DNA of 64,000 bases from Jiangella mangrovi (GTDB lineage Bacteria; Actinomycetota; Actinomycetes; Jiangellales; Jiangellaceae): contig NZ_JACHMM010000001.1 in the NCBI RefSeq assembly GCF_014204975.1, forward strand, positions 4,588,001 through 4,652,000. The letters are read 5' to 3'. Position numbers and translations under genes: made by a program. The notes beneath the pieces are model-generated. The model did not search any database. It had not been told where the DNA came from and saw only the letters and a list, made by a program, of their open reading frames with translations. Positions 40,363-45,083 of the stretch are shown here, piece after piece (position 1 is the first letter of the stretch; every line of letters begins with the position of its first letter).

Positions 40363-43300
40363 TCAGCGGGCTCGCAGCGCCTCGCGGCAGACCGCCGCGA
40401 CGTCGCGGGCCGCCTCGAGCGGGGCGGTCCAGCCGGTCCGCTCGGCCGCCGACGCCAGCGGTGCGAGCACCTCGGCCGCCGCGCCGGGGTCGCCGTGGCG
40501 GAGCCAGGCGCGGGCGACCGCGACGTAGGTGTCGGCGCCGTACAGCCAGGCCGACCCGGGCGGCGTGCTGACGGCGCGCACCATGGCGTCGGCCTCGTCG
40601 AGCAGCTCGCGCGAGCCGGTCGCCCAGGCCAGCGCCGCCAGGCAGGGCAGCCGGTAGGCCTCGGTACGGTGCCGGCCGGCCACCGCCAGTCCGCGTTCCA
40701 GGAGGGCGACGGCCTCGGCGGTCTCGTCGCGCCCGTCCAGCTCGAGAAGCGTCGTGGCGTAGGTGGCCAGGCTCGCCGCGCTGAACCAGGCGTGCGCCTG
40801 CAGCGTCAGCGACCGGCGGCCGAGCCGGACGGCGTCGTCGTACCGGCCCCGCAGCCGGGCGATCCAGCCGAGGTTGGACACGTACCAGGACTCGTAGCCG
40901 CTGTACCCGCTGCGGCGGTTGACCGCCAGCGCCTCCTCGACGCGGGCCGTGGCGGCGTCCCAGTCGCCGCGGGCGATCGAGGGGAAGGCGGACTCGAACA
41001 GGCACCACTGCAGCAGCCAGAGGTCGCCCGAGCGCCGGCACAGAGGCTCGAGCTCGTCCAGCACCTCCTGCAGCTCACGCACCTCGCCCAGGTAGGCGTG
41101 GGCGGTCTTCGCCCCGTCGAGGGCCACGGCCAGGGCGTCGTCGTCGCCGATGTCGCGGGCCAGCGCCAGGGCCCGCCGTCCGTACGCCAGCGCGTCGCCG
41201 AACCGCAGCCGGTTGGCCGACAGCACCGAGAGCCAGGCCAGCAGCTCGGACTCGGCCGGGCGGTCGCCCAGCAGCTGCGCCAGCCGCAGGCTCTCCTCGA
41301 GGTGGGCCGTCCCCTCGGCGATGGGCCGCCCGCCGCCGGCCCAGGCCGGGCCGCCCAGCTGGCGCAGGGCGCGCATCTCGAGGAGCCGGTCGCCGCCGGC
41401 GCGCGCCGCCCGCAGCGCCTCGGCGTGGTCGGCGACGGCGTCGTCGTACCGGTACATCGCCTCGCGCGCACGGCCCCGGGCCAGGTGAGACCGGCCCTCG
41501 AGCGCGACGTCCCCACCACGGCGGGCCGCGTCGATGGCCTGGCCCAGCAGCGCCTCGGCGTCGCCGACGGCGTAGCGGCGAAGTGCCTGCTCCCCCGCGG
41601 CCAGCCAGCCCGGCGCGGCGCGGGCCCAGTCGCCGGCCGCGCCGGCATGCCAGCCGACCGCCTCCGGGTTGCCGGCCTGCACGTCCGCCGCGCGCAGGTG
41701 GTACGCCACCCGGGTCGGCTGCGGCGTCGCGGCGTAGAGGGTCTCCTGGACGAGGTCGTTCTCGAACTCGTAGGCGCGGCCGGCCACCACGAGCAGCCGG
41801 GTGGGCAGGATCCGGTGGCAGCGCCGCGCGGCCTCCTGGGCGCTGACGTCGAGCAGCCCGGCCAGCGTCATGGGCGTGAACGACGAGCCCAGCACGGCCG
41901 CGGCGTGCAGCAGCTCCTCGGCCTGGGCTCCGGCCCGGCGCACCCGGCCCATCACGCTGGCCCTCAGCGAGTCCGGGATCCCCTCCTCGCCGGCCGCCAG
42001 GGCGCGCAGCGTCTCGACCACGAACAGCGTGTGCCCGCGTGTGCGCCGGGCGATCTCGGCGCCGTGCGCCTCCTGGCCGGCCTCGGCGGCGAGCCGCTCG
42101 ATCGCCGCGTCGTCGAGCGGGCCGACGTCGACGCGCTCGGACACGTCGGCCAGGGCGGCCAGGACCCGCTCGCCCTCGTCCGCCCGCACCGTCGCCACCA
42201 CCAGCAGGCGGCCGCCGGCCGTGTTCCGGCCGAGGTAGTGCAGCAGCTCGACGGTGGCCACCCCGGCGTTGTGCAGGTCGTCGACGACGAGCAGCAGCGG
42301 CTGGCGGGCGGCCAGCCGGCGCAGGAACACGACCACCGCGTCGTAGACCCGGCGGCGCTCGGCCGCCGCGCTGCGCCGCTCCGGCACCGGCGCGCCCAGC
42401 AGCTCGGCCACCTCGGGCACCAGCGTCGCGAGGGCGTCGGCCCGGTCCGCGGCGGCCTGGCGCAGCACCGGCACCGGCAGCCGGGTGACCAGGCGGCCGA
42501 GCGCCTCGGCGACCGGCTGCAGGAACAGCGAGCGCTCGACGTCGTAGCAGCGAGCCTCGAGCGTCCGGCCGCCGGTCAGCCGGGCCAGCCGCGCGGTCTC
42601 GTCGGCCAGCGCGGTCTTGCCGATGCCGGCCGCGCCCGCGAGCAGCACCAGCGCGCCGTCACCCGCGACAGCGCGCTCCCAGCGACGGGTGAGGCCCGCC
42701 AGCTCCGCGTCCCGCCCGGCGAGCCGCTCCGACGCCGGCCCGGGTCCGGCCTCCGGCCGCGCCCCCGCCGGCGCCACCTGCTGGCGCAGGATCGCGACGT
42801 GCAACTCCCGGGTCGACGGCGCCGGGTCGATGCCAAGCTCGGTCGCGAGCCCGGCGCGCAGCCGCTCGAACACCGCCAGGGCGCGGGCCGGCTCGCCGGC
42901 GGCGTCGTAGGCGCGCATCAGGGCCCGGGCCGGCCGCTCGTCCAGGGGCTCGGCCTCGGCCGCCGCCTCCGCCGCGGCCAGCGCCGCCGCGACGTCCCCC
43001 GTCCGCAGGCCCGCCTCGGCGGCGACCGCGCGGGCCCGCCCGGCCACGTCCGCCTGGAGCCGCCGGCCCTCGCCGGCCCAGGACGCGTCCGTCTCGTCGG
43101 CGAGCAGCGGCGCCGCCCCGACGAGGTCGAGCGCGGCCTGGGCGGCGGCCAGGGCGAACGCCGGCTCCGCGTTCCCGAGCCGGATCTCGGCCTCGGCGAC
43201 GAGGTCGGCCGCCCGGTGCAGGTCGACCTGCGTGCCGTCGCCGAGGCGGTAGCCGGAGCGGCCGCCGGCCACCACGTCCGGGCCGAGAGCGGCGCGCAGC

Positions 43301-43536
43301 CGGCTCACCAGGGTCGCCACGCTCGCCGCGGGCCGCTGCGGGCCCTGCTCGCCCCACAGCGCCTCGACGATCCGGTCCACCGGGACCAGCCGGCCGCCCG
43401 CGACCGCCAGCAGCGCGAGCAGGGTGCGGCCCTTGCGGTCGCCCACCTCGCCGGCGGGCAGCGCCCGGCCCACCCGCACCACGGTCAGCTCGCCGACCAG
43501 GCACACCTGCAGCTCGACACCGTCCGCGGCGTCCAC
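40363..43536 (-). CDS. SARP-AAA-TPR transcriptional activator (AfsR-like)
   Basis: A 1057-residue regulator. Residues 1-100 are an OmpR-type winged helix (LLALLAVAGGRLVPVDRIVEALWG, ASVATLVSRLRAALG), about 105-255 the bacterial transcriptional activation domain (PLDERPARALMRAYDAAG, ELGIDPAPSTRELH), about 275-600 an AAA/STAND ATPase with Walker A GAAGIGKTA and Walker B LLLVVDDLHN, and the rest TPR-like helical repeats. This is the AfsR layout, normally activating secondary metabolism or adjacent genes. It is divergent from a FAD oxidoreductase, with a SARP-style repeat array between. Confidence 0.92.
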   Translation of the reverse strand: MDAADGVELQVCLVGELTVVRVGRALPAGEVGDRKGRTLLALLAVAGGRLVPVDRIVEALWGEQGPQRPAASVATLVSRLRAALGPDVVAGGRSGYRLGDGTQVDLHRAADLVAEAEIRLGNAEPAFALAAAQAALDLVGAAPLLADETDASWAGEGRRLQADVAGRARAVAAEAGLRTGDVAAALAAAEAAAEAEPLDERPARALMRAYDAAGEPARALAVFERLRAGLATELGIDPAPSTRELHVAILRQQVAPAGARPEAGPGPASERLAGRDAELAGLTRRWERAVAGDGALVLLAGAAGIGKTALADETARLARLTGGRTLEARCYDVERSLFLQPVAEALGRLVTRLPVPVLRQAAADRADALATLVPEVAELLGAPVPERRSAAAERRRVYDAVVVFLRRLAARQPLLLVVDDLHNAGVATVELLHYLGRNTAGGRLLVVATVRADEGERVLAALADVSERVDVGPLDDAAIERLAAEAGQEAHGAEIARRTRGHTLFVVETLRALAAGEEGIPDSLRASVMGRVRRAGAQAEELLHAAAVLGSSFTPMTLAGLLDVSAQEAARRCHRILPTRLLVVAGRAYEFENDLVQETLYAATPQPTRVAYHLRAADVQAGNPEAVGWHAGAAGDWARAAPGWLAAGEQALRRYAVGDAEALLGQAIDAARRGGDVALEGRSHLARGRAREAMYRYDDAVADHAEALRAARAGGDRLLEMRALRQLGGPAWAGGGRPIAEGTAHLEESLRLAQLLGDRPAESELLAWLSVLSANRLRFGDALAYGRRALALARDIGDDDALAVALDGAKTAHAYLGEVRELQEVLDELEPLCRRSGDLWLLQWCLFESAFPSIARGDWDAATARVEEALAVNRRSGYSGYESWYVSNLGWIARLRGRYDDAVRLGRRSLTLQAHAWFSAASLATYATTLLELDGRDETAEAVALLERGLAVAGRHRTEAYRLPCLAALAWATGSRELLDEADAMVRAVSTPPGSAWLYGADTYVAVARAWLRHGDPGAAAEVLAPLASAAERTGWTAPLEAARDVAAVCREALRAR

Positions 43537-43593
43537 CCCCCTGCCACCCGGTGGTACTACGCCGGTCCGCGCAGGTCAAGAGGCTGGCACGAC

Positions 43594-43637
43594 GCGGGCG
43601 CAGCGCGGGCGCGGCGCGGCCGCAACGCCACCGCAAC
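43594..43637. promoter_or_regulatory. Four tandem 11-bp repeats, probable SARP binding site
   Basis: Units GCGGGCGCAGC, GCGGGCGCGGC, GCGGCCGCAAC and GCCACCGCAAC follow each other with exact 11-base period. SARP proteins are known to bind heptamer direct repeats spaced one helical turn (11 bp). The array lies 51 bp before the oxidoreductase start and 57 bp before the regulator start. Confidence 0.6.
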
Positions 43638-43688
43638 GCGACCTGGCACCGTCGCCGGCGTCCGAACGAACCACCCACGGGGGGAACC

Positions 43689-45083
43689 ATGAGCACCGAC
43701 ATCGAGACCGGGCGCCTCGCGCGCCGCGAGCTGAGCGGCGTCCGCGGCCGGCTGACCGGGCCGGAGGACGCCGGCTACGACGAGGCCCGCAAGGTCTACA
43801 ACGCCATGATCGACCGGCGCCCGGCGCTGATCGCCCGGTGTGCCGACGCCGACGACGTCGCCCTGGTCGTCGGGTTCGCGCGCGAGCACGGCCTGCCGCT
43901 CGCCGTGCGCGGCGGCGGCCACAACGGGGGCGGCCTGGGCGTCGTCGACGACGGCGTGGTCATCGACCTCGGCGACCTGCGCGAGGTCACCGTCGACCCC
44001 GAGGCGCGGACGGTGCGCGTCGGGGGCGGCTGCACGTGGGGCGAGGTCGACCGGGCGACCAACGCGTTCGGCCTGGCCACGCCCAGCGGGATCATCTCGA
44101 CGACGGGGGTCGGCGGGCTCACGCTGGGCGGCGGCCTCGGGCACCTGACCAGGGCGTTCGGCCTGGCCATCGACAACCTGCTCGAGGTCGAGATGGTGCT
44201 GGCCGACGGCGAGCGCGTCTCGGCCAGCGCGGCGGAGCACCCGGACCTGTTCTGGGCGGTCCGTGGTGGCGGCGGCAACTTCGGGGTGGTGACGTCGTTC
44301 CTGTTCCGGCTGCACGAGCTCGACACCGTCGTCGCCGGCCCGACGTTCTGGGCGATCGAGCAGACGGCCGAGGTGCTCGCGGCCTACCGCGACTTCCTGC
44401 CGGCCGCGCCGCGCGAGCTCAACGGGTTCTTCCTGGTGGGCGCCGTGCCGCCGGCGCCGCCGTTCCCCGAGGAGCTGCACCTGCGCACCGTCTGCGGCGT
44501 CGTCTGGTGCCACGTCGGCTCCGCCGAGCAGGCCGCCGCGGACATGGCGCCGCTGCTGGACGCGCTGCCCGAGCCGCTGCTGCACGCGCCGTCGCCGATG
44601 CCGCACCCGGCGCTGCAGAGCGCCTTCGACGGCCTCTACCCGCCGGGCGACCAGTGGCACTGGCGGGCGGACTTCGTGACGGAGATCCCGGACGAGGCGG
44701 TCGCGATCCACGCCGACTTCGGCGCCCGGCTGCCCACGTGGAAGTCGACGATGCACCTGTACCCGATCGACGGCGCGGCGCACGACCACGGCTCCGCCGA
44801 CACCGCGTGGAGCTACCGGGACGCGCGCTGGGGATCGGTCTTCGCCGGCGTGGACGCCGACCCGGCCAACGTCGGCCTCATCAGCGCGTGGTCGGTGGAC
44901 TACTTCGAGGCGCTGCACCCGTACTCGGCCGGCGGGGCGTACGTGAACATGATGATGGACGAGGGCCAGGACCGGGTCCGCGCCAGCTACCGCGGCAACT
45001 ACGAGCGGCTCGCGCAGGTCAAGGCGCAGTACGACCCGGAGAACCTGTTCCGCGTCAACCAGAACATCCGGCCGGCTACGTAG
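43689..45083 (+). CDS. BBE-type FAD-linked oxidoreductase
   Basis: A 464-residue berberine-bridge-enzyme-like flavoprotein: [13 protein letters not shown] puts the flavin-linking His at residue 78, [24 protein letters not shown] is the second FAD loop, and the C-terminal BBE tail reads [13 protein letters not shown]. The Cys that gives a second covalent bond in bicovalent members is replaced (STTGVGG), so attachment is likely through His alone. No export signal. The ATG follows a GGGG-rich site. It is a probable target of the divergent SARP regulator; the substrate is unknown. Its stop overlaps rluD by 8 bp. Confidence 0.9.

Follow-up and report, generated by a model that had tools for sequence, protein, structure and literature searches.

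What is the role of the 11-bp periodic array that separates a large regulatory gene from a divergent oxidase gene in Jiangella mangrovi, and which of the two genes does it serve? In the 64,000-nucleotide stretch of DNA analysed here (the window), the array is held by a 152-bp gap between the GTG start of the regulator P0001 (1057 aa, 40363..43536, minus strand; start at 43536) and the ATG of the oxidase P0002 (464 aa, 43689..45083, plus strand; start at 43689). Pfam assigns to P0001 an N-terminal Trans_reg_C domain (26.5 bits, cut-off 26.2) followed by BTAD (70.3 bits), and an ATPase half with AAA_16 (80.5 bits) and TPR_12; no LuxR-type HTH is found among the Pfam hits. The combination of a Trans_reg_C-type domain and BTAD with a large ATPase half lacking the C-terminal LuxR HTH places the protein among the SARP-LAL regulators, for which such a layout has been described (PMC10972967). 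In a PDB search, its first 262 residues match the SARP domain of AfsR (8hvr, E=6e-18) and EmbR. The initial annotation, made from the sequence of the window, had named an AfsR-like SARP and a divergent BBE-type oxidase; this holds, and P0002 carries FAD_binding_4 and BBE domains.

The periodicity of the gap is real. In the 55-bp segment 43588-43642, 34 of 44 positions equal the base at offset 11, a self-match that is unique within the window and constitutes its strongest 11-bp periodicity; when the intergenic region was dinucleotide-shuffled 2000 times, no shuffle attained it (periods 5 to 30 were tried), and period 11 was also called by Tandem Repeats Finder. Four 11-bp direct repeats had been annotated at 43594-43637, a span that covers the first four of what are in fact five degenerate units (43584-43638), read on the minus strand, that is, the strand of the SARP gene. 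Units 1 (CGTTGCGGTGG, 43628-43638) and 2 (CGTTGCGGCCG, 43617-43627) are proximal to the oxidase and conserved in orthologs, whereas units 3 (CGCCGCGCCCG, 43606-43616), 4 (CGCTGCGCCCG, 43595-43605) and 5 (CGTCGTGCCAG, 43584-43594) are degenerate and private to the J. mangrovi genome, the whole stretch 43584..43616 being missing from the intergenic regions of the other eight Jiangella. The array has the format of SARP operators, namely heptameric direct repeats with 4-bp spacers, as the annotated match of its period to SARP heptamer spacing had implied. Inspection by eye, with no statistic applied, of the sequences upstream of the 15 BTAD genes in the genome showed clear 11-bp repeats only at two SARP/oxidase pairs.

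Comparison across the genus shows which part of the array is kept. The candidate operator core, formed by units 1 and 2 (43617..43638, minus strand; hereafter the box), contains a sequence, CGTTGCGGTGnCGTTGCGG, found in all nine Jiangella genomes with the SARP, J. mangrovi included. In the alignment of the nine species, 18 of 19 core columns are invariant, compared with 14 of 39 ungapped oxidase-side columns (Fisher p=1.3e-5) and 34 of 75 columns of the whole background (p=5e-5), columns being taken as independent in both tests. Each of the nine genomes has exactly one copy of the perfect motif, invariably at the SARP–oxidase locus, and a genome-wide search found none in the three Jiangella genomes that lack the SARP. 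Orthologs of the SARP are 83-89% identical among the Jiangella relatives and 63% identical in a metagenome-assembled genome of the same family (MAG G016), which carries a variant box, GTTGCGGTCTGGTTGCGC. Oxidase orthologs (90-92% identity in the pair-bearing Jiangella, 77% in the MAG) occur in the same ten genomes, and both genes are missing from the three box-less Jiangella, in which the best oxidase matches are paralogs at 51-54%. Box, SARP and oxidase are thus co-inherited in Jiangella; because they are adjacent, this counts as one locus and not as three independent events. The conservation of the repeats wherever the gene pair occurs, which the initial annotation had proposed to check, is therefore seen for two units, and the sequence comparison supports the operator interpretation in this narrower form, the remaining units of the four-repeat operator being private to J. 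mangrovi.

The protein side of the putative contact points in the same direction. In AfsR, the direct repeat is contacted at its bases by R92 and T88 and at its backbone by S91, R94, R87 and K95 (PMC10936776). The predicted recognition helix ATLVSRLR, present in P0001 and its orthologs of Jiangella, the MAG, Planobispora and Nonomuraea, keeps T88, S91, R92 and R94 of AfsR, and the Jiangella box shares its CGTT start with the AfsR box, CGTT(T/C)ATCGNN. A second divergent pair of a large SARP and a BBE oxidase is found in the same genome (L078:1489-6229; G000:C1:5725988-5730728). Its SARP has the helix QAYVSHLRR (A88, H92), and ACTTGAG-type 11-bp repeats, ACTTGAGGCCG and ACTTGAGGTGG, lie between the genes. 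Two Geodermatophilus pairs (L053, L054) share this helix type, CTTG repeats at 11-bp spacing and the divergent arrangement. As read from these sequences, a changed helix is accompanied by a changed repeat, a correlation that involves two helix types. A search of the genus for close orthologs of the second pair found none outside the J. mangrovi genome.

Outside Jiangella, the box follows the regulator in some lineages. Upstream of three Planobispora SARP orthologs (58-60% identity), at about 50 bp from the matched SARP start, lies CGTTGCAGGAACGTTGCAG; the copy in Nonomuraea soli, TGTTGCAAGAACGTTGCAG, is weaker and scores under the 7-of-8 threshold of the upstream box scan. The divergent gene in these genera differs from the oxidase and, going by its sequence, looks like that of a methyltransferase; no oxidase relative was found in the 13-15-kb loci. 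Since the box is kept before the SARP despite another divergent gene, it appears to be tied to the regulator. The 300 bp scanned upstream of the SARP contain no box in two Asanoa orthologs, where the first helix type is present, nor in the 47-51% identical orthologs of five further genomes (G047, G053, G077, G096 and G105). These cases are points against a model in which the box is an operator for the oxidase. A class-wide search of 98 genomes added three distant full-length SARP orthologs, all without the box.

The position of the box relative to the two predicted promoters bears on the question of its target. The SARP promoter, predicted from sequence, consists of a -35 element TTGACC (43574..43579, minus strand), invariant in nine Jiangella, and, after 17 bp, a -10 element TACCAC (43551..43556, minus strand; TACGAC in most relatives), with five of six columns invariant. 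The box sits upstream of this -35 without overlapping it. The SARP start codon is only 14 nt from the -10 (window positions 43534-43556; 13-15 nt in Jiangella), which suggests that the SARP mRNA has a very short leader or is leaderless. On the other side, a putative oxidase-promoter region, TGGCACCGTC ... CCGAACGA (43644..43669, plus strand), is partly conserved in the aligned leaders. The region contains no clear sigma-70 -35/-10 hexamers, which is a point against oxidase activation. Judged by eye, 24-25 bp separate the box from the CCGAACGA-like element across leaders, the element being degenerate in some species; CCGAACGACC, which resembles it, precedes the oxidase of the second pair. The MAG oxidase leader (L010) is alone in having a long GC-rich inverted repeat, CGCGGCCCCTTGGGCCGCG, between box and oxidase.

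The distance from the box to the SARP -35 varies in a regular way. It is 40 bp in J. mangrovi, 29 in G006, 18 in G007, 7 in G008 and G011, 6 in the clade of G003, G004, G009 and G010, and 41 in the MAG. The Jiangella gaps thus equal 7+11n with one 1-bp exception, the clade of four, and the five gaps outside that clade are all 7 modulo 11. With three free lengths, the chance of such a pattern is about 0.0008 if exact and 0.02 within one base, or 0.005 within one base when the MAG is added; the pattern was spotted before it was tested, and the number of independent changes is uncertain because the tree resolves only G000 (J. mangrovi) with G006 (94/99) and the clade of four. The G011 oxidase was left out of this DNA tree, which leaves the box and gap length of G011 unaffected. 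The pattern could result from gain and loss of whole units, from selection for helical phase, or from both. The extra sequence between box and -35 is plainly repeat-like in the J. mangrovi genome only. It is a speculative idea, and on balance a doubtful one, that operator and SARP promoter separate by whole 11-bp units with the SARP acting on its own promoter in a phase-dependent manner from several helical turns away. If true, a row of SARP protomers would possibly spread over the degenerate units; such a mode of action is not described for SARPs in the literature cited here.

SARP operators usually overlap the -35 of the target promoter, PimR being an exception. This SARP-LAL of Streptomyces natalensis has a single site in the divergent pimR-pimM intergenic region, clear of the -35; without PimR the expression of pimM is about 90-fold lower, and PimR is not autoregulated (PMC3367932). 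At least two repeats are needed for its binding (PMC5930380). The Jiangella locus resembles the PimR operator in the divergent regulator/target pair, the 11-bp units (heptamer + 4), the large SARP with an ATPase half and an apparently single site, which in Jiangella is clear of the SARP -35. GCAA is read on the strand of the target gene in both, CGGCAAG at PimR (PMC3367932) and CCGCAAC in Jiangella. The differences lie in the heptamer sequence, in the number of units (two conserved in Jiangella, three at PimR), in the candidate target, which is an EncM-like oxidase and not a PAS-LuxR regulator, in the lack of a known gene cluster around the Jiangella pair, and in a spacing to the SARP promoter that varies in 11-bp steps. 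Compared with the AfsR box at afsS of Streptomyces coelicolor, the two 11-bp direct repeats starting with CGTT are alike; however, the afs box overlaps the -35, its centre being at -29.5 (PMC10936776), whereas the Jiangella box lies upstream of the SARP -35 and its possible target is divergent.

On this basis, we consider it probable that the repeats are a dedicated operator of the adjacent SARP-LAL, which would activate the EncM-like oxidase on the PimR plan. We infer that neighbouring SARP monomers each occupy one 11-bp unit, in which the helix ATLVSRLR reads the CGTT, and that from the box the SARP most likely turns on the divergent oxidase, whose own promoter is poor, as PimR does for pimM. 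Feedback on the SARP gene via the box would also be possible, since the near-consensus SARP promoter is downstream of the box and in register with it. A possible but rather unlikely alternative is that the box is a SARP operator that mainly controls the SARP gene itself, by autoactivation or autorepression, and the oxidase is a passenger or is controlled separately. The 7+11n gaps to the SARP -35 agree with it, and the orientation of the box on the SARP strand, the same as that of the AfsR box on afsS, together with the Planobispora box just upstream of the SARP start and opposite an unrelated gene, favours autoregulation at least in Planobispora. In Jiangella, however, the SARP promoter already has good hexamers, the box lies upstream of the -35 (the afsS box covers this element), the oxidase-side spacing hardly varies, box and both genes are co-inherited, and PimR, the closest parallel, does not regulate itself.

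It is much less probable that the repeats serve another protein that binds 11-bp direct repeats, namely a response regulator of the OmpR type, for instance PhoP. A PHO box does comprise a pair of 11-nt direct repeat units in which seven bases are conserved, reading GTTCACC in S. coelicolor (PMC4415409), so that the format and the leading GTT are shared, and PhoP overlaps the AfsR box at afsS (PMC10972967). Yet the invariant Jiangella units read GTTGCGG, on which ground identity with a PHO box was rejected; a lone perfect site in each genome, linked to a SARP gene, is ill-suited to a global regulator, and the box is missing from the three SARP-less Jiangella but retained before SARP orthologs in another family. 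That the array as a whole is functionless, slipped GC-rich simple sequence we regard as highly improbable, given that units 1 and 2 do not vary among nine species and reappear in another family; for units 3-5 alone, which are GC-rich, degenerate and private to the J. mangrovi genome, this reading may well be right. Preferring the operator for the oxidase, we note that sequence comparison alone yields a core of 19 bp, what is likely a single target gene and a second pair with another helix and other repeats, and that the Jiangella species offer a natural spacing series (7, 18, 29 and 40 bp). Together these make it possible to test directly the rules of SARP recognition and the distance from a promoter at which a SARP can act, and the conserved repeat pair, most likely the docking site of the regulator, makes an uncharacterised switch directly testable.

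The nearest solved relative of P0002 is EncM (E=5.6e-102), and both the FAD-anchoring His78 (RGGGH) and the oxygen-pocket Thr139 (STTG) of that enzyme (roles in PMC7662398) align in it; judged by these residues, P0002 is an EncM-like flavoenzyme. Its suggested part in tailoring a metabolite found no local support, as the recognisable neighbours, a chorismate mutase, a pseudouridine synthase with an S4 domain and a DksA-type zinc finger protein, do not suggest a biosynthetic cluster. Judged by titles and abstracts, the literature searched contained no relevant work on divergent SARP/BBE pairs or on Jiangella SARPs. At L030:3250-4911 in G027, the gene of an EncM-like oxidase with 46% identity to P0002 is divergent from that of an ATPase/TPR regulator which, judged by the intergenic space, apparently lacks a SARP domain. 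Paralogous oxidase matches (50-51% identical) contain one TAG in three genomes (G000:C1:2546047-2547384, G009:C7:125000-126337 and G007:C17:8155-9492) and a TGA instead in G005 and G002; the stop codon may merely be the gene end falling inside the alignment.
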